NCBI RefSeq assembly: GCF_023100945.1 | Contig: NZ_CP064689.1 | Span: 806,001-870,000 of the forward strand | Length of the DNA stretch: 64,000 bases | DNA from: Bradyrhizobium sp. 200 | GTDB lineage: Bacteria; Pseudomonadota; Alphaproteobacteria; Rhizobiales; Xanthobacteraceae | Direction of reading: 5' to 3' | Part shown: positions 35,372 through 43,547 of the stretch, in pieces | Layout of the letters: each line of letters begins with the position of its first letter | How positions within the stretch are numbered: position 1 is the first letter of the stretch | Program-made: the position numbers and the translations under genes | The notes under the pieces: model-generated | Database searches by the model: none | What the model saw: only the letters and a program-made list of their open reading frames with translations | What the model was told of the DNA's origin: nothing

Positions 35372-36313
35372 ATGGCAAAGCGTCACGTCATCCTTGCGGT
35401 CTGGCTTGCATCCTTTGTCTTCATCACATCGGCCACGGCCGAGGAGTTCCCCAGCCGTCCAATCATCTGGGTCGTGCCATTCGCGCCGGGCGGCATCACC
35501 GACACGACGTCGCGCATCGTTGCCGAGGAAATGTCGAAGACGCTCGGTCAGTCGGTCCTGATCGATAATCGCGGCGGCGGTGGCGGCACGGTCGGCACCG
35601 AACAGGTGGCGCGCTCCAAGCCCGATGGCTACACGATGATCTACGGCACGCAGGGCACGATGGCGGCCAACGTCACGTTGCGCAAAAACCTGTCCTACGA
35701 TCCGCTGACGAGTTTTCTGCCGGTGCATCTGGTCGGCGAAAGCCCGAACCTGTTCGTGGCCTATCATGAGGCGCCCTATAATTCGGTGCCCGAATTCATC
35801 GCCTACGCCAGGCAGAATCCGGGCAAGGTGACGTTATCTTCCTCCGGCGTCGGCACCGCGACGCATCTGGTCGCCGAATTGTTCAAGACGGTTGCCGGCA
35901 TCGAGATGCAGCACGTGCCTTACCGGGGCAGCGCGCCGGCACTGAACGACATGATTGCTGGCCGCGTCGATGTCATGTTCGATTATCCGGTCTCGGTCGG
36001 TCCGCATGTCCAGGCCGGCAAGCTGAAGGTGCTGGCCACGACGGCGCCCGAACGGCTGCGCGCATTTCCAAACGTGCCGACCATGGCCGAACTCGGCATG
36101 AAGGACATGACGACTCAGAGCTGGTCCTCGATCATGGTGCCCGCAGGCACGCCCGCGCCGGTCGTCGACCGGCTGGCGGCGCACGCGCATGCGGCGCTGA
36201 CATCGGAACGCGTGCGCACGCATTTCGAAAAAGTCGGCACCCGCCCGATGACGCTGCAGAAGGCCGAGATGATCCCGTTTATCGAAAGGAGATCGTGCGC
36301 TGGCGCGATGTGA
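35372..36313 (+). CDS. Bug-family (TctC-type) periplasmic binding protein with frameshifted C-terminus
   Basis: 313 residues as read. Signal peptide up to 'ATAEEFPSRPI', then Bug landmarks 'VPFAPGGITDTTSRIVAEEM', 'VDNRGGGGGTVG'-like sequence, 'ADGYT'-like turn, 'HVPYRGSAPALNDMIAGRVDVMFD' and 'APERLRAFPNVPTMAELG'. After 'KAEMIPFIE' the frame runs to a premature stop. One extra A in the aaa run at 36285-36287 would restore 'KEIVRWRDVIERAGLEKQ' ending with TAA at 36340-36342, the normal Bug ending. The protein is otherwise intact. Solitary: no TctA/TctB membrane genes here. Confidence 0.85.
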   Translation: MAKRHVILAVWLASFVFITSATAEEFPSRPIIWVVPFAPGGITDTTSRIVAEEMSKTLGQSVLIDNRGGGGGTVGTEQVARSKPDGYTMIYGTQGTMAANVTLRKNLSYDPLTSFLPVHLVGESPNLFVAYHEAPYNSVPEFIAYARQNPGKVTLSSSGVGTATHLVAELFKTVAGIEMQHVPYRGSAPALNDMIAGRVDVMFDYPVSVGPHVQAGKLKVLATTAPERLRAFPNVPTMAELGMKDMTTQSWSSIMVPAGTPAPVVDRLAAHAHAALTSERVRTHFEKVGTRPMTLQKAEMIPFIERRSCAGAM

Positions 36314-36364: not shown

Positions 36365-37477
36365 TCAGGCCGTCGCCAGCCGGTCGAGCAGGGCCAGCAT
36401 GACCGGCGCGTCGGGCATCGGCAGCACCGCATCGATTCGCTCGATCAGGCGCGATTGCAGCAGCGGATTGCGTGCCTTTCCGACTGTCCCGAGCGGGCCG
36501 CGAAATCCATGCTCTTCCCAGGCGAGTTCGAGCAGGCTCTCGTTCACAAGGGCGTCGATCAGTTCGTCGGCGGCGCGGTCGATGCTGATGAGGGGATGGG
36601 CCGAGAACGCCGTCGGCCGCGGATAGAGGATCACCGGCTTGGAGGGCGCGCTGGCCTCGACCCGCTTCCAGCGGTCGGCGTCCTGCAGCACCCATTCGAT
36701 TAGCTGGTTTTCGTAGCCGACGATCAACGGCTGCGCGCCGGCGCCGCCGGCCACGTAATCGTCGAACAGTTTGCCTGACGACGGCGGCTTGTAACCCATC
36801 CGGCGGAACACGGTGGCAACGTCGCCGTCGATGCGCCCGAGCGAATCGAGCGCGATGACGTCGCCGCTGAGCAGGCTGGCCGTGAGCCCTGCAAACATGA
36901 AGCCCGAATTGGACTTGTTGGGATCGGTGGAGACGATGCGCGCGCGGCCGAACAGGCCGCTTACGCCCATGGCCTCCCAGGTTTCGCCGGCGATAACGGC
37001 CTTGAGCACCCTCAGCAGATCGACCGTATAGCGTGGACCGCCCGCGGGCTCGGCAAAGCCGCCTTTCACCAGACCGTCGGCGATGCGGTCCCACGAATAG
37101 AGCACGATCGGCGAGTTGAAGATCACCTGGTCGCGCGAAATTTTAACGCCCGAGTTACGTGCGACTTCCACAAGCACAGACGACGAGGGCCACAGAAACT
37201 GCGGCTTCTGGTCCAGCAGCGTGCGTTCGCGCACCATTTCGACCGATCCGGCGCGCCTTGCATCGAGAATCAGTCCGAACCGGCGCTCAAGCAGGCTCCG
37301 GACGCGGGCATTGGCGAGGAGCCCTTCCTTTTCGCCGCCGGCAAAGCCGAACAACCGCTTCGGCTCGCCGAACCGGCCCGCTATTTCGGGATGCTGACGC
37401 AGATAGACATAGCCGCCGGTGCCGGCGGCGCTTGCCGCGAGCATTCCAATTCCGAAGGCCCGGCGCGAAATGGCCAT
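36365..37477 (-). CDS. Exported extracellular binding-protein-like protein, last gene of TelA/VWA operon
   Basis: 370 residues. N-terminal 'SRRAFGIGMLAASAAGTGGY' is a Tat-like or uncleaved signal. The mature part has the two-lobe binding-protein style ('GSVEMVRERTLLDQKPQFLWPSSSV', 'VIFNSPIVLYSWDRIADGL', 'DPNKSNSGFMFAGLTASLL', 'QPLIVGYENQLIEWVL'), similar in motif order to the first half of the VWA fusion protein two genes upstream. It overlaps the XpaC-like gene by one base. Probably a periplasmic or membrane-tethered sensor or receptor; ligand unknown. Confidence 0.8.
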   Translation of the reverse strand: MAISRRAFGIGMLAASAAGTGGYVYLRQHPEIAGRFGEPKRLFGFAGGEKEGLLANARVRSLLERRFGLILDARRAGSVEMVRERTLLDQKPQFLWPSSSVLVEVARNSGVKISRDQVIFNSPIVLYSWDRIADGLVKGGFAEPAGGPRYTVDLLRVLKAVIAGETWEAMGVSGLFGRARIVSTDPNKSNSGFMFAGLTASLLSGDVIALDSLGRIDGDVATVFRRMGYKPPSSGKLFDDYVAGGAGAQPLIVGYENQLIEWVLQDADRWKRVEASAPSKPVILYPRPTAFSAHPLISIDRAADELIDALVNESLLELAWEEHGFRGPLGTVGKARNPLLQSRLIERIDAVLPMPDAPVMLALLDRLATA

Positions 37478-38136
37478 CAGGCTCTCCTCTTGCCTGGGTC
37501 GGGGGAAACGGGAAGTTGCGGCGGTGGGCCGAGATCCTCGTCAAGTGAACTCTTCAGCAGCTTGAGCTCGATGTCGAGATTGCCGAGATCGGCTTCCTGC
37601 AGGTTGGCCGCATAATGCGTGAAGGCGGTATCGAGCCGGTCGATCAGATCGCTTGTCGCGGCGATACGCGCGGCATCGCGCGTGCTGCCCTTTTCCAGCA
37701 GGGCATAGGCCTCCGCAAGATCGGCCGCACGCGGCAAATAATAGGTCAGAAAACGCCGCACCCGGTCGACGCGGAGCGGATCCTCTTCGACGCCCGCGAA
37801 GATCTCGCGGGAAATGCGCGCCAGATGACGCACGCGTTCGGCGACCTTGGGCGTGCCGATCGAACTCACGGCGACTTCAAGCCGAACCGCAAGCGGCTCG
37901 GCATCGGTCAGGAGGCTGCGCGCGAACTCGATCTTGCCGCGCGCCACGCCGCTGGCGTCCAGCCCCTCGAACAGCTTGCGCGGCGATAGCAGAACCACGA
38001 GTCCTCCGCCCGCCGCCGCACTGACGAGGCCGGCGATCCAGAACGGCATGCCGACGCCGATGGCAAGCACCGGCAACAGGATGGCGGCAGCGGCGCCACC
38101 CGCAATCCAGTTCATCCCTGACCATGCCGATGGCAT
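37477..38136 (-). CDS. XpaC-like protein (5-bromo-4-chloroindolyl phosphate hydrolysis family)
   Basis: 219 residues. Two N-terminal membrane segments ('WIAGGAAAAILLPVLAIGVG' and 'FWIAGLVSAAAGGGLVVLL') are followed by a cytoplasmic helical domain ('VAERVRHLARISREIFAGVEED', 'RVDRVRRFLTYYLPRAADLAEAYALLEKG', 'LDTAFTHYAANLQEADLGNLDIELKLLKSSL'). This layout and the last motif fit XpaC, whose gene in Bacillus is next to the TelA homolog yaaN. Finding both here strengthens both calls. The family's biochemical role is unclear; a membrane-stress scaffold is an inference. Confidence 0.82.
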   Translation of the reverse strand: MPSAWSGMNWIAGGAAAAILLPVLAIGVGMPFWIAGLVSAAAGGGLVVLLSPRKLFEGLDASGVARGKIEFARSLLTDAEPLAVRLEVAVSSIGTPKVAERVRHLARISREIFAGVEEDPLRVDRVRRFLTYYLPRAADLAEAYALLEKGSTRDAARIAATSDLIDRLDTAFTHYAANLQEADLGNLDIELKLLKSSLDEDLGPPPQLPVSPDPGKRRA

Positions 38137-39711
38137 TCAGTTGTACCCTCGCACCGCGCGAAAAGCCTGGGTGAGACTCTTGGTGCCGTCGAACACCCTT
38201 CCGCCCGTCAGGGTGGCGAGGCTGTCGAGCTGGCTGCGGTCGGCGTCGTCACCGAAGGTGACGCCGAACACCGGCACGCGCCGTCCGTCGGCGCGCCACG
38301 CGGCCTCGAACGTCGTCATGGCGCCCTGGCTCTTGCCGTCGGTCATGATGACGATGGCCGGCAGGTGCTGGCCGGCATCGAGAACAGGCTTCATCTCGGC
38401 AAGCGCGCGTGCCCCGCAGGTGTAGAAGTCAGTGCCGTCGCGCGCGCGCAATTCGAGGGTTTTGGTGAGAATAGCGGTTTGATCATTATCGTCCCCGCTA
38501 CCCGCCGCTGTCCACAGCACGCGATCGCTGAATGGCAGCACGATGATTCGGTCTTGCTTCGACCACTGCACCAGCACCTCGCGGGTGCGAACCGGCGTCA
38601 GCAGAAATCGCATGGCTTCGAGCAGTTGCTCTTCGCCGTGCCCCTTCATGCTCCCGGACACGTCAATACACAAAGCGGTCAGCGAAGGTCGCCGCAGTGC
38701 TTCCTGGTAGAGCGACAGCGCCTTTTGAATGACGGCGGGTTCCGGTGGCCGAACCACCGTAAGCGCGCGGCTCGGGTCGAGATTGGTGGCCGGATCGGCC
38801 TTGATCGGCGCCGCGCGGCCAAGCTCGACGCGCCGCCCGGTCGCCGCGATCCGCGCCTGGGTGTCGCCCTTGAGCAGAAAGGCCTGCAGGTCGGCGAAAA
38901 AGCTCTCGACCTCCTTGCCGCGCCCGCGATCGACAAAGCCGAGCGGGGAGTCACCGACCGATACGCCGTCCTCGGGATAGATTGCGTAGAGCGGCTCCTT
39001 TTTGTCGGCGATCAGCTTGTCGTTGGTCTCCTTGATGACGGCCTCGTAATTCCACATCGCTTCGTAACGCGCGCCGGTCCGCTCGCCTTCGCGGTAGAGA
39101 TCGGCGAGCCATCCGCTCGATCCCGAGGAACGCTCGACGCCGCGCAACAGGCCGCGCACGGTGGCGAGCACCTCTGGCTTGTCGAGATCGCCTGATTCGA
39201 TGAGATCGGGCTTGCCGATCCCGGCCGCCAGCATGGCGAGATAGGCCGAGGCGCCGGAATTCGACTGCGTCGCGGAGGTCATAAGGAATTTCAGCCGGCC
39301 GCCCTCGACAGCGGCGAGGATATCCTTCGTCGTCACCTTGGCGCCGACCCAGCCCAGCGCCTGCGCCTTGGACCGCTTGACGCCGAGGATAACCGGCATT
39401 TGCGCAATCGACTTGACCGATTTGACGCGCCGGGCGGTGTCGAACATGTCGATCCAGATCGACGCCGCGGGCCACACCGCGTCGGCGCCGGGGTCGTTGC
39501 CGGCCTTGAGCGCCAGCGCGATATCCAGCGAGCCCTGATATTTCACGCTGCAGTCAGCGCGGCGCGACCGGCAGAACTCCCGCACCATCGGCTCGAGGAC
39601 GTCGTTCTCCGAACCGGACAGGATGGTGAATTGCGGGCCGGGCGCAGAGCAGGCGCCAAGCGCCAACGCGAGCAGCAGGCCGGCAGCAACCCGAAGCGCA
39701 GCTTTGTTCAT
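38137..39711 (-). CDS. Lipoprotein fusing a solute-binding domain to a von Willebrand factor A domain
   Basis: 524 residues. Lipobox 'LALGACSAP' gives a lipid-anchored Cys near residue 21. Residues about 25-310 are an extracellular binding-protein fold (SBP 11-like: 'SGSENDVLEPMVREF', 'KYQGSLDIALALKAG', 'AVWPAASIWIDMF', 'SATQSNSGASAYLAMLA'). Residues about 345-520 are a VWA domain with an intact MIDAS: Asp350-x-Ser352-x-Ser354 in 'CIDVSGSMKG', a Thr in 'ARDGTDFYT' and 'IVIMTDGKSQG'. It starts within the TelA stop (four-base overlap) and abuts the XpaC-like gene. Likely a metal-dependent periplasmic sensor or assembly factor. Confidence 0.88.
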   Translation of the reverse strand: MNKAALRVAAGLLLALALGACSAPGPQFTILSGSENDVLEPMVREFCRSRRADCSVKYQGSLDIALALKAGNDPGADAVWPAASIWIDMFDTARRVKSVKSIAQMPVILGVKRSKAQALGWVGAKVTTKDILAAVEGGRLKFLMTSATQSNSGASAYLAMLAAGIGKPDLIESGDLDKPEVLATVRGLLRGVERSSGSSGWLADLYREGERTGARYEAMWNYEAVIKETNDKLIADKKEPLYAIYPEDGVSVGDSPLGFVDRGRGKEVESFFADLQAFLLKGDTQARIAATGRRVELGRAAPIKADPATNLDPSRALTVVRPPEPAVIQKALSLYQEALRRPSLTALCIDVSGSMKGHGEEQLLEAMRFLLTPVRTREVLVQWSKQDRIIVLPFSDRVLWTAAGSGDDNDQTAILTKTLELRARDGTDFYTCGARALAEMKPVLDAGQHLPAIVIMTDGKSQGAMTTFEAAWRADGRRVPVFGVTFGDDADRSQLDSLATLTGGRVFDGTKSLTQAFRAVRGYN

Positions 39712-40766
39712 GCGGGCGACTTGGACAACGCTGACTTCAGTTGGTCGGTCAATTGCGCCATCCGCTGTTCGATCTCGGCGCGCTTCCTGCGGCCCTCTTG
39801 CTGGACGTTGAGGACGCCCGCAATGGTATCGACCAGGTCGGTGTTGGTCTTCTCCAGCGTCGCGATGTCGACGATGCCGCGCTGCGATTGCTTCTCGATA
39901 TCGATCGCCTGGGTCTTCATCATCTCCGAGGCCTGTTTCATCATCTCGTTGGTGGCGTCGGTGACGGTCTTCTGCAGGTCGAGCGCGGATTTCTGCCGGC
40001 TGAGACCGAGCAGCAAGATCATCTTCTGCTTCCAGACCGGGATGGTGAGCTCGGTCGTCGCCTGCAGGTTCTCGATCAGGGTTTCGTCGCCGGACTGGAC
40101 GATGCGGATCTGCGGCAGTTGCTGAATGCCGATCTGGCGTGCCTGCTGTAGATAGAAGATGCGCTTTTCGAGCCGATCAAGCGCCTGGGCGGCGTCCTGA
40201 TAGGTTTGCGCCGCCAGCATCGCGTCGCTGCCCTGGCCCGCCGCCTTTGCGGCCTGCTCAAGTTCGACCAGTTTGTGGCGGCGAAAATCCTCGGCAAACT
40301 CCTTGCCGGCCGCGATATGCGAATCGAGGTCGCCGAGCGAGGCCTTGGTCTGCTCGTGCAATTCATCCAGCACGGCGATGTCACGCCGCAGCGTTTCCTT
40401 GTTGCGATCGAGTTCGATACAGACGCGGTCGACCTGCGAGGACACGTCGTCGAATTGTTCGGAGAATCGTCGCAAGCGCGATTCCATCGAAGAGAACAGG
40501 CGGGAGAAGAAGCCGCTGTCCTTCAGCGAGGCGGGATCGAGACCGCGCGCCTTGGCCAGGATGTCGGACAGCAGTTTGCCTGTGGTCCCGAGCTCCCGGT
40601 TCTGGGTCTGGGCGAGGATCCGGTCGGCGAACTCGACCACCGAACGCTGCGCACGATCGCCGAAGGTGACGATGCGCGACCGATCGGAGATGTCGATTTC
40701 GGATTTGATGCGCGTAACTGCGGAGGCGTCCACCATGACCGCCGGGACATTGATGGTTTCGCTCAT
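39708..40766 (-). CDS. TelA-like toxic anion resistance protein
   Basis: 352 residues, cytoplasmic, almost entirely alpha-helical. 'LSDILAKARGLDPASLKDSGFFSRLFSSMESRLRRF' and 'LDRLEKRIFYLQQARQIGIQQLPQIRIVQSGDETLIENLQ' are diagnostic of the TelA family, associated with tellurite and antimicrobial resistance. Long coiled coils include 'LEQAAKAAGQGSDAMLAAQTYQDAA'. The ATG at 40766 has AGGAGAAGGA upstream. It is the first gene of the four-gene operon. TelA partners XpaC in several bacteria. The mechanism is unknown. Confidence 0.92.
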   Translation of the reverse strand: MSETINVPAVMVDASAVTRIKSEIDISDRSRIVTFGDRAQRSVVEFADRILAQTQNRELGTTGKLLSDILAKARGLDPASLKDSGFFSRLFSSMESRLRRFSEQFDDVSSQVDRVCIELDRNKETLRRDIAVLDELHEQTKASLGDLDSHIAAGKEFAEDFRRHKLVELEQAAKAAGQGSDAMLAAQTYQDAAQALDRLEKRIFYLQQARQIGIQQLPQIRIVQSGDETLIENLQATTELTIPVWKQKMILLLGLSRQKSALDLQKTVTDATNEMMKQASEMMKTQAIDIEKQSQRGIVDIATLEKTNTDLVDTIAGVLNVQQEGRRKRAEIEQRMAQLTDQLKSALSKSPA

Positions 40767-40988
40767 CGCGCTTCCTTCTCCTCAAGGGTTGATCCCCGCA
40801 GGCAACATGGTGCCGCAGCAGAGGTCTGGCAAGATAGCGTTCACACGCGAACAGATCGATGACGTCTCGCGCGCTCTGCTATTCAGGTCGCGACGAATCT
40901 ATCCCGGGTTCAACAGGATAGTGAATAAGCTGGTAACGTAAATGACGCGACGTGAAGGCCTCGCTGTCATTGAACCGTCATCTGACTG

Positions 40989-42508
40989 TCATGTTCGTCG
41001 CGGGCTGATCTTCCATGTCGCCGCCAGGATCGCCGCGGTCATTGCGCCGCTGATGATTGCGGCGATCGGGATCGTCACGGCGAGAGCCGCGGTCGCGGCC
41101 CAGCCGATCGAGCAGAACGCTTCCGCGAATGTTGCCAGCCGCGACGAGGTCTGGCGGCGGCGGAACTGGCTGCGCTTGGCCTGCACGCGGAACCAGAGCT
41201 GGATCGCAGCCGCCGAGACGGTTGCGACGATGACGCCAAGCGCGGTCACGATCGCCTGCGTCAAGGAAGCAAAGGCCAATGCTGCGATCAGCGGCGCGAA
41301 GATGGCGCCAATGGCGATCAGTACCACCTCGATCTTGGCGCGGATCACGCGCGATGGTGGCAGCGGCGCAGTCGCGACCAAGTCGGCGGCGTCTTCTCCT
41401 GATATCGTCAGCCAGGCGAGGCCGCCGGCAAGCTGGCCCGCCGCCATCACGATCACGGGCGTGATCAGGACGATCGCCGCCGAGCTTTCGGAAAAACTTC
41501 GCCACAGCATCAAGGCCGGCGGCACCAGATAGAGCAGTTGCATCAGGGTTTGCGACAACAGCCACGGATCGCGGCGCAACAGCAGGAATTCCTTGGTGCG
41601 CAGCGCCCGTTGCCGCGAACCGCCGCGAAATGCGGTCGCGCGCGGTCCGCGACGGACGGACCGGGCGGTTGCGGCGACTTGGACCACGGTATCGGCAAAT
41701 CTCGGCGAGAACACCGCCATCACGACGCCGAGCAGCAGGAGCCCGCCGGCCATGAGCCACGACAGCACCATGCCATCGCCGATCGCCGCCCGCGCCGGCC
41801 ACCACAGCGGGCTGTCGAGGTCAGGCGCATAGGCTGAAGCGGCATCGGAAGTCAGCACCGCAAAGCGGGACAACGTGCCGTAGGAAAGGATGGCGGCGAC
41901 CTGGAGCGCGATGACGAAGCCGGCACCGATGATGGCGGCCACGATCTGCGCGACGAGGCGGGTGCGGCTCGGGCCGATCAACCTGAACAGCGCGACGGTG
42001 ATCGCGATCGCAACGGCCGCGGCCGAAAGACCGATGGCGATGACGACGCCGAACGTGGAAAGCCAGCGGATGCCGCCGCCGATCACGAGAACGTCGACAA
42101 AGGGCGTCGACAGCAACAGCGCCATCCCGATCACGGACAGCCCGATCGCGGCGATCCGCACCGAGAACACGTTGGCGAGGTTCGCCGGCGACGACATAAT
42201 GAGATCGAGATCGGCGCGGGCGTAGAACACCCGCGTCACGGATTCGATGGCTTGCGACAGCATCAATGCCCAGGCGAGGAAGATGGTCGCCGTGATGACG
42301 ATCAGTTCCGGCTTGTCGAGCGGGGCTTGCAGATCGGCGAAGCGGCCGATCACGGCGTAGGCCGGCAGGTGCATGACGGCGACGAACACGATCAGGGCGA
42401 TGATGGCGCGCTTTCGCTTGCCGCGTCTGCCGGCAATCATCGCCAGCCATTCGCGCCAGGCCAGCCGGATCTCGTGGCGGGCAAACCAGGTGAGCGCCGC
42501 GGCTGAAC

Positions 42509-42512
<4 letters not shown>
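40989..42512 (-). CDS. ABC-2-type exporter permease
   Basis: 507 residues with about 12 predicted membrane segments and no ATP-binding motif. N-terminal 'WFARHEIRLAWREWLAMIAGR' is followed by hydrophobic stretches ('IIALIVFVAVMHLPAYAVIG', 'TATIFLAWALMLSQAIESV'), a central cytoplasmic region 'SRQRALRTKEFLLLRRDPWLLSQ', as in several ABC-2 permeases, then more segments. Its start overlaps the ATPase stop by four bases, so the two make one exporter. Substrate unknown; lies 222 bases after the TelA operon start on the same strand and may or may not belong with it. Confidence 0.85.
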
Positions 42513-43261
<749 letters not shown>

Positions 43262-43547
43262 GACTTCAGGGCGATCCAGTTGTTTGCTGCGGACCATGGA
43301 CCGAAGAACTTTCGGCGCGGTGAATCTTGCACGCCAAATCGCAGCGAACCCCGCAACTTTCCGGGGCTGCGGCATTTCTCCGCAATTGTTAACGGCGCGG
43401 CACGCAGCGCTTTGTTGACAGGGGTCAGCGCTTTGGGCTCAATGCAGCGGGACATGTGCGGCTGCAGGCATCGTGGATGCCAGGCAGCGTGTAGACACAA
43501 GATGCGGAAAAGGCGATCGACAGAATCGCCCGGCATCGGGGAGGGAA

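Follow-up and report, generated by a model that had tools for sequence, protein, structure and literature searches.

To our knowledge, the mechanism of TelA and XpaC, two stress proteins of wide distribution, is not established. Genes of the two families lie side by side, with ties to envelope-stress regulation, as xpaC-yaaN in Bacillus subtilis, lmo1966-lmo1967 in Listeria and llmg_1115-1116 in Lactococcus. In excerpts of the respective sources, xpaC-yaaN is described as a core sigma-W operon (PMC3498285), XpaC-TelA homologues appear in a table of a Lactococcus CesSR study (PMC3139573), and the Listeria lmo1967 mutant is cited as more sensitive to nisin and tellurite (PMC12791056). The operon analysed here lies in a 64,000-nucleotide stretch of Bradyrhizobium sp. 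200 (contig NZ_CP064689.1, positions 806,001 to 870,000), the whole of which is called the window; the genome is a single contig of 9.49 Mb. Arrangements of the xpaC-yaaN type consist of two genes and have neither binding proteins nor a von Willebrand factor A (VWA) domain. In contrast, the Bradyrhizobium unit holds XpaC and TelA in one operon with a gene between them for a lipoprotein that joins a solute-binding domain to a VWA domain (SBP-VWA), and it ends in a gene for a second binding protein (SBP2). An original prediction, made from the sequence of the window, had read these four genes as one functional unit and had pointed to the TelA-XpaC pairing in Bacillus, which is indeed that of the sigma-W operon. 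The unit comprises the following features:

40767..40988, minus strand: gap of 222 bases upstream of TelA, presumed promoter and leader (open reading frame (ORF) list; sequence)
39708..40766, minus strand: TelA-family protein, 352 aa, first gene of the unit (ORF; PF05816)
38137..39711, minus strand: putative lipoprotein with SBP_bac_11 and VWA domains, 524 aa (ORF; Pfam)
37477..38136, minus strand: XpaC-family protein, 219 aa (PF10112)
36365..37477, minus strand: SBP2, second binding protein, 370 aa (ORF; structure model; fold search)

Conservation and order of the four genes

The four ORFs were confirmed in the ORF list of the window at 36365-40766, all on the minus strand, and encode, from 5' to 3', TelA, the SBP-VWA lipoprotein, XpaC and SBP2. 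Their junctions are, in this order, a 4-base overlap, a zero gap and a 1-base overlap, exactly as had been described for the single-strand arrangement. Relatives were collected by a scan of named genome records, and the 80 loci analysed were the best of 216 confirmed ones and not a random sample. The four genes are a real functional unit: all of them were found together on one strand in 57 of the 80 loci. The predicted unit is upheld by this count, and a gene-neighbourhood comparison that had been suggested for Alphaproteobacteria showed the set kept together in several phyla, well outside that class.

The order TelA-SBPVWA-XpaC-SBP2 was present in 27 loci (Rhizobiales and kin) and SBPVWA-XpaC-SBP2-TelA in 29 (Clostridia, Treponema, an Acidobacteriota metagenome-assembled genome (MAG), a Desulfobulbaceae MAG and others); in one further locus, L068, too early a start of the SBP2 ORF call puts XpaC last in print, and the locus was counted with the TelA-first order, giving 57. 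Plasmid-collection records from Sphaerotilus, Variovorax and Nonomuraea have the order SBP2-TelA-SBPVWA-XpaC, and a Deinococcus plasmid record has the same order without TelA at the locus. The observed orders are cyclic permutations of one order. Three genes without TelA were found in 19 loci, five of which are cut at a contig end (L057, L078, L081, L103 and L104), and fewer than three in four loci, namely SBP-VWA alone in L073 and in L075 (221 bases of contig left), and SBP-VWA with XpaC followed by the contig end in L086 and L094. With start codons chosen mechanically, the median junction was -4 bases for TelA-SBPVWA (28 pairs), 1 for SBPVWA-XpaC (77 pairs) and -1 for XpaC-SBP2 (75 pairs). 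In a tree of 49 SBP-VWA proteins the four from the plasmid collection stood apart (100/100) and 13 alphaproteobacterial rows were grouped (96/85), with L028 at the base. The SBP-VWA protein of L120 (Rhodobacteraceae MAG ZH-Jul18-90) grouped with other phyla, by horizontal transfer or by misbinning of the contig.

TelA was then sought in the assemblies of 12 of the 14 uncut three-gene loci and of L024, leaving out L091 (same MAG as L085) and L096. It was present elsewhere in the assembly in 11 of these 13 genomes (in G440 as a partial match only) and was found in both four-gene genomes included in the same search; in the Deinococcus record, for which the plasmid alone and not the chromosome was searched, it was not found. 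Second TelA genes were seen on other contigs of two genomes (L123:4186-5905 in G266 and L124:3842-5828 in G042), each beside a short XpaC-like gene. Pfam recognised these short genes barely or not at all; the one in G266 gave no Pfam match and an E-value of 3.3e-20 with the refined XpaC profile.

The module is accessory in each sample taken. Within the genus of the window it was carried, patchily, by 13 of 146 sampled genomes, the window genome included; 12 of the 13 showed all four genes in the fetched stretch, SBP2 often being cut by the end of that stretch, and one was cut at a contig end. The locus is not the same from species to species: compared with the window, the L045 locus matched only over the module within the 9 kb fetched on either side, and L046 matched over the module and, in addition, over a single 1.2 kb piece that lies elsewhere in the window. 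A sample of 289 alphaproteobacterial genomes gave 10 matches, of which G043 and G052 were dropped as short and weak, leaving a full-length SBP-VWA in eight (window genome included). TelA was present in all eight and PF10112 exceeded the cut-off in seven, the eighth having a locus relative by the refined profile; over the same 289 genomes PF10112 was found in 17 and TelA in 25, over cut-off. In a sample of the phylum of a Ruminococcus record (G446), 40 of 199 genomes matched before restriction to the SBP-VWA type and two after it: G446 itself, chosen as centre because it carries the module, and G555, at a contig end.

Domains and predicted folds

The four family profiles went through three rounds of refinement on the very loci analysed, which flatters their E-values; Pfam counts on 34 selected loci (28 in the case of TelA) and the window served as the independent check. 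The domain assignments of the original prediction, VWA and XpaC among them, stood up to these searches. TelA of the window matched PF05816 over its whole length (E 4.9e-95, positions 2-331 of 332), and 29 of 29 chosen module members matched the family at E 0.001. It is the only PF05816 match of the genome, and the only PF10112 gene also lies in the operon. A Shine-Dalgarno-like GAGGAGAAGGAA precedes the gene, and hydropathy analysis of the protein gave no hydrophobic segment. Its best Foldseek matches were long-helix proteins (E 4.6e-3 or worse), and sequence comparison with the PDB gave three matches at E 0.05 or worse. XpaC of the window matched PF10112 with E 8e-36 (positions 3-190 of 191), as did all 35 module members at E 0.01 or better. 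Two N-terminal hydrophobic segments (11-29 and 32-50) are followed by a helical-looking domain, which is probably cytoplasmic; by sequence, the protein matched mainly designed helical proteins in the PDB.

The second gene was assigned to the type II periplasmic binding proteins by its SBP_bac_11 profile match (E 8.9e-10). All 35 chosen members matched VWA, and 34 of them matched SBP_bac_11. The parts of the protein are as follows:

39649..39711, minus strand: signal peptide with lipobox-like LGAC, cysteine 21 (sequence)
38752..39648, minus strand: solute-binding domain with motifs GSE, GS, WP, SNSG, GSS, NYE and YP (alignment)
38188..38673, minus strand: VWA domain, residues 347-508 (PF00092, PF13768)
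38650..38664, minus strand: metal-ion-dependent adhesion site (MIDAS) motif DxSxS (D350, S352, S354), together with T427 and D458 (alignment)

The lipobox cysteine is kept in 30 of 35 alignment rows, and of 106 family ORFs, 85 have a lipobox-like motif ahead of their binding domain. Within the binding domain, G33 S34 E35, G60, S150 N151 S152 G153, G197 S198 S199, N221 Y222 E223 and Y245 P246 are identical in 35/35 rows; S61 (33/35), W80 (33/35) and P81 (34/35) are less strict. A MIDAS, which is usually an adhesion site, is defined by DxSxS plus a T and a D. All five residues are identical in 35/35 rows and in 10 rows that include three plasmid-record members, and under this definition the VWA metal site is complete. 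Compared with known structures, the binding-domain profile matched only ferric-binding chains (E 4e-4) and 6lki (E 0.0079), and no ligand could be named by sequence profile search. In one Mesorhizobium loti record (L071:8944-10544) SBP-VWA is present as two ORFs, reflecting a broken gene or a sequencing error.

SBP2 of the window matched no Pfam or NCBIfam family, and at E 0.1 a Pfam binding-protein family was matched by one of 35 members (E 3.4e-4). Structure prediction gave a confident model, which fold search places in the type II periplasmic-binding-protein fold. The original prediction had listed two binding folds as separate items; this did not hold, SBP2 and the binding domain of the second gene being homologous and having their pocket motifs in common. 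The nearest folds of the binding proteins are binding proteins of ATP-binding cassette (ABC) importers, several of them ferric-binding proteins. An N-terminal helix of SBP2 (residues 2-28) is either an anchor or a signal peptide, and contains SRRAFG, which we take to be a motif like that of twin-arginine translocation (Tat) signals; two adjacent arginines occur within the first 12 residues in 48 of 101 SBP2 ORFs. In a Flavonifractor record (L097:11083-12149) SBP2 is present as two ORFs, again a broken gene or a sequencing error.

Genomic surroundings

A scan restricted to sigma-70 type promoters gave no promoter-like match in 40767..40988, and one site in all, lying within a gene, against 0.5 expected. 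Upstream of the unit and on the same strand (window 40989-43375) lies an ABC-type pair: one gene encodes an ABC ATPase, the other a 507-aa protein that matches no Pfam family. The pair is in place in L043, lies apart from the module in L044, and was not matched in L045 or L046. On the other side, a TctC-family binding-protein gene (window 35372-36313, plus strand) runs towards the operon, the two ends being 51 bases apart.

Neighbouring ORFs of at least 90 aa were clustered at E 1e-8, the 60 largest components were inspected and those with at least four loci were printed. No fifth conserved partner was found by this clustering, the scope of which is limited by short contigs. Components tied to one position and strand were all neighbours within either the Rhizobium or the Mesorhizobium group. 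The largest of all components covered 23 loci, with 13 of its 29 ORFs on the module strand and a median distance of 3.5 kb. Fifteen loci of the Rhizobium group, 14 of them named Rhizobium and one a Rhizobiales bacterium, have an EipB-like gene upstream of TelA, in the same orientation and at a distance of 59 to 277 bases. The gene groups that come next downstream are each present in 15 of the loci, and their representatives are ribosomal protein S2 and elongation factor Ts. EipB is described in an excerpt of PMC10787603 as a periplasmic envelope-integrity factor of Brucella. On plasmid 2 of Variovorax sp. SRS16 (L004:12511-17464), the Wadjet genes jetA and jetB follow about 2.4 kb after the module (PADLOC matches E 6.1e-216 and 9.1e-90), and its other side is occupied by genes for a flotillin-domain and an OB-fold protein.

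Proposed mechanism, alternatives and known systems

The explanation put forward here, tentatively and at a little under an even chance, is a four-component envelope-protection system spanning the inner membrane, in which an XpaC-TelA stress device would be given a ligand-gated front end. The gene set, its conservation and its domains are the observed part of this explanation; the ligand, the topology of the contacts, the direction of the signal and the phenotype we infer. SBP-VWA and SBP2 would be twin receptors that close on a small ligand, identical or similar for the two and probably anionic, like that of many of the closest binding-protein folds. SBP2 would be exported and, if uncleaved, held at the membrane by its N-terminal helix. 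The VWA metal site may grip a partner in one receptor state, most simply SBP2 or another envelope protein, and the receptor state may be relayed through membrane helices to XpaC and its inside helical domain. TelA, which is long, helical and free of membrane segments, might then be recruited to or released from the XpaC site, and as an inner-membrane scaffold could raise tolerance to envelope damage or toxic anions. No kinase or transporter would stand between the receptors and XpaC-TelA. It is possible, though doubtful, that the unit represents a new transmembrane receptor class of several phyla, with two homologous Venus-flytrap receptors and a MIDAS gating TelA directly via XpaC; if so, a ligand outside the cell would switch inner-membrane protection without kinase, second messenger or transporter. 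The identity of the ligand would show to what TelA-XpaC responds, and would bear on why a gene named for toxic anion resistance also protects against a cell-wall-active compound, as stated in an excerpt of PMC12791056.

Several observations weigh against this explanation. Of 103 XpaC ORFs, hydropathy analysis assigned one segment to 50, two to 52 and none to one; of 101 SBP2 ORFs, 61 had one segment, 2 had two and 38 had none, and SBP2 of the window itself had no segment above threshold. Given these variable counts, SBP2 may or may not be anchored and the XpaC domain may face either side of the membrane, and SBP2 would be left free in the periplasm if a Tat signal were cleaved. With a mean pLDDT of 68.7 the TelA model is poor, and no match in its fold search reached E 1e-3, so the scaffold role is taken from the literature. 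The junction from SBP2 to TelA is looser than the others (median 31 bases, 29 pairs). Loci without TelA are spread over the tree, with 10 changes for 12 rows and 150 of 500 shuffles as low, and in two of the 13 TelA-less genomes tested, both MAGs, no TelA was found in the assembly. The protein in the XpaC slot of the plasmid-collection group (L002-L005) gave no PF10112 match at E 1, and that of L005, the only one compared by profile, matched XpaC weakly (E 2.3e-4, probability 44%). The EipB neighbourhood belongs to one lineage and lies in an envelope-gene region anyway.

Several other explanations were weighed. The binding proteins may sequester a toxic anion or metal in the periplasm while TelA-XpaC stabilises the membrane independently, with no signal passing across it; the two similar, highly conserved pockets, the lack of a permease conserved alongside, the name of PF05816 (toxic anion resistance) and a possibly soluble SBP2 speak for this, but the VWA metal site kept in 35/35 rows and the tight junctions of the binding genes with XpaC and TelA (medians -4, 1 and -1) would go unexplained, and we consider it unlikely. 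Metal supply, in which the module would help to metalate exported proteins, or its own VWA domain, in the manner of TerC metal chaperones, is suggested by several of the nearest folds being ferric-binding proteins, by the alphaproteobacterial genome G022, where XpaC and TelA stand next to TerC and an SPFH gene with no binding proteins, and by the metalation of exoenzymes by TerC proteins in B. subtilis, as given in an excerpt of PMC10550928. However, the three TerC genes of the Bradyrhizobium genome lie megabases away (4.07, 4.67 and 8.27 Mb, the operon being at 0.84 Mb), and the neighbour clustering gave no TerC cluster around the module. The usual use of a MIDAS in adhesion also tells against metal supply, which is judged distinctly unlikely. 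That the binding proteins feed an importer encoded elsewhere, with TelA-XpaC regulating uptake, would suit their resemblance to ABC-importer binding proteins and the ABC-type pair 222 bases upstream on the same strand; but no permease or ATPase recurs with the module in the neighbour clustering, as would be expected of an ABC importer, and the pair of the window is absent from the L045 and L046 stretches and apart in L044, which makes this reading quite improbable.

An anti-phage or plasmid-conflict system would accord with the patchy distribution, with the Variovorax copy 2.4 kb from Wadjet genes and with a review that puts TelA in sub-membrane structures preventing entry of phage or xenobiotics (PMC7824862). 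Against it, none of the four module proteins matched PADLOC at E 0.01 in a search that detected JetA and JetB of L004, no relative was confirmed among 21 pattern stretches of viral contigs found with two short patterns, and 15 Rhizobium-group loci lie in a housekeeping region; this is very unlikely. A fortuitous operon, with a stress pair and binding proteins merely under one promoter, could be argued from the 19 of 80 loci with three genes but no TelA (five cut at contig ends) and the four with fewer. It is strongly disfavoured and next to incredible, since the gene order is conserved across several phyla up to cyclic permutation and since 11 of the 13 genomes tested with a TelA-less locus carry TelA elsewhere.

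The envelope-protection system put forward here was compared with described systems other than the XpaC-TelA pair, and no description of the four-gene form was found in the searches of open-access literature, the 2012 comparative work on Ter stress response, which may refer to some of the four genes, being outside the scope. Ter stress systems group TelA and VWA domains with TerC and TerD, and their VWA protein is described as sub-membrane (PMC7824862), whereas in the present unit a lipoprotein signal and a binding domain precede the VWA domain; no TerD was detected in the window genome (controls detected) and, with its TerC genes so distant, the unit does not stand in a Ter system. The IncP klaABC (kilA) tellurite operon has three genes, with KlaB being TelA, but KlaA matches TelA, KlaC matches TrbC/VirB2, and there is no binding protein, VWA or XpaC. 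An equation of the fourth gene with KlaC and of XpaC with KlaA was rejected, KlaA being TelA-like and KlaC TrbC-like. The fold matches of the binding proteins include 6lkg and 6lki, which are presumably HptA. In HptASR of Staphylococcus aureus a binding protein serves as extracytoplasmic sensor and not as importer (excerpt of PMC8774646); HptASR signals to a histidine kinase, and the four-gene unit has none.

The same two-domain architecture is found in actinobacterial SBP-VWA loci of Streptomyces (L006) and Miltoncostaea (L007), that of L006 carrying the RefSeq product name 'substrate-binding and VWA domain-containing protein'. Neither locus has a TelA match, and the next protein has no PF10112 match in either; that of L006, the only one compared, did not match the XpaC profile. 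Here (L006:4695-7335, L007:4668-7173) SBP-VWA is followed by a protein of 271 or 264 aa, perhaps a sister system with another inside partner. Within the Alphaproteobacteria, XpaC directly precedes TelA without SBP-VWA, as in Bacillus, in, for example, G022, G057, G131, G154 and G252. The G022 row (L127:2924-9289) is a membrane-stress cluster made up of TerC, a long XpaC, TelA, a DUF2927 protein, an SPFH-GYF protein and a zinc-ribbon protein, with no binding proteins. Since such pairs occur in the same class, the four-gene form is best regarded as an elaborated version of the XpaC-TelA pair that adds what the pair lacks, exported receptors with invariant pockets; its parts are known, and their unusual combination is kept together over several phyla.

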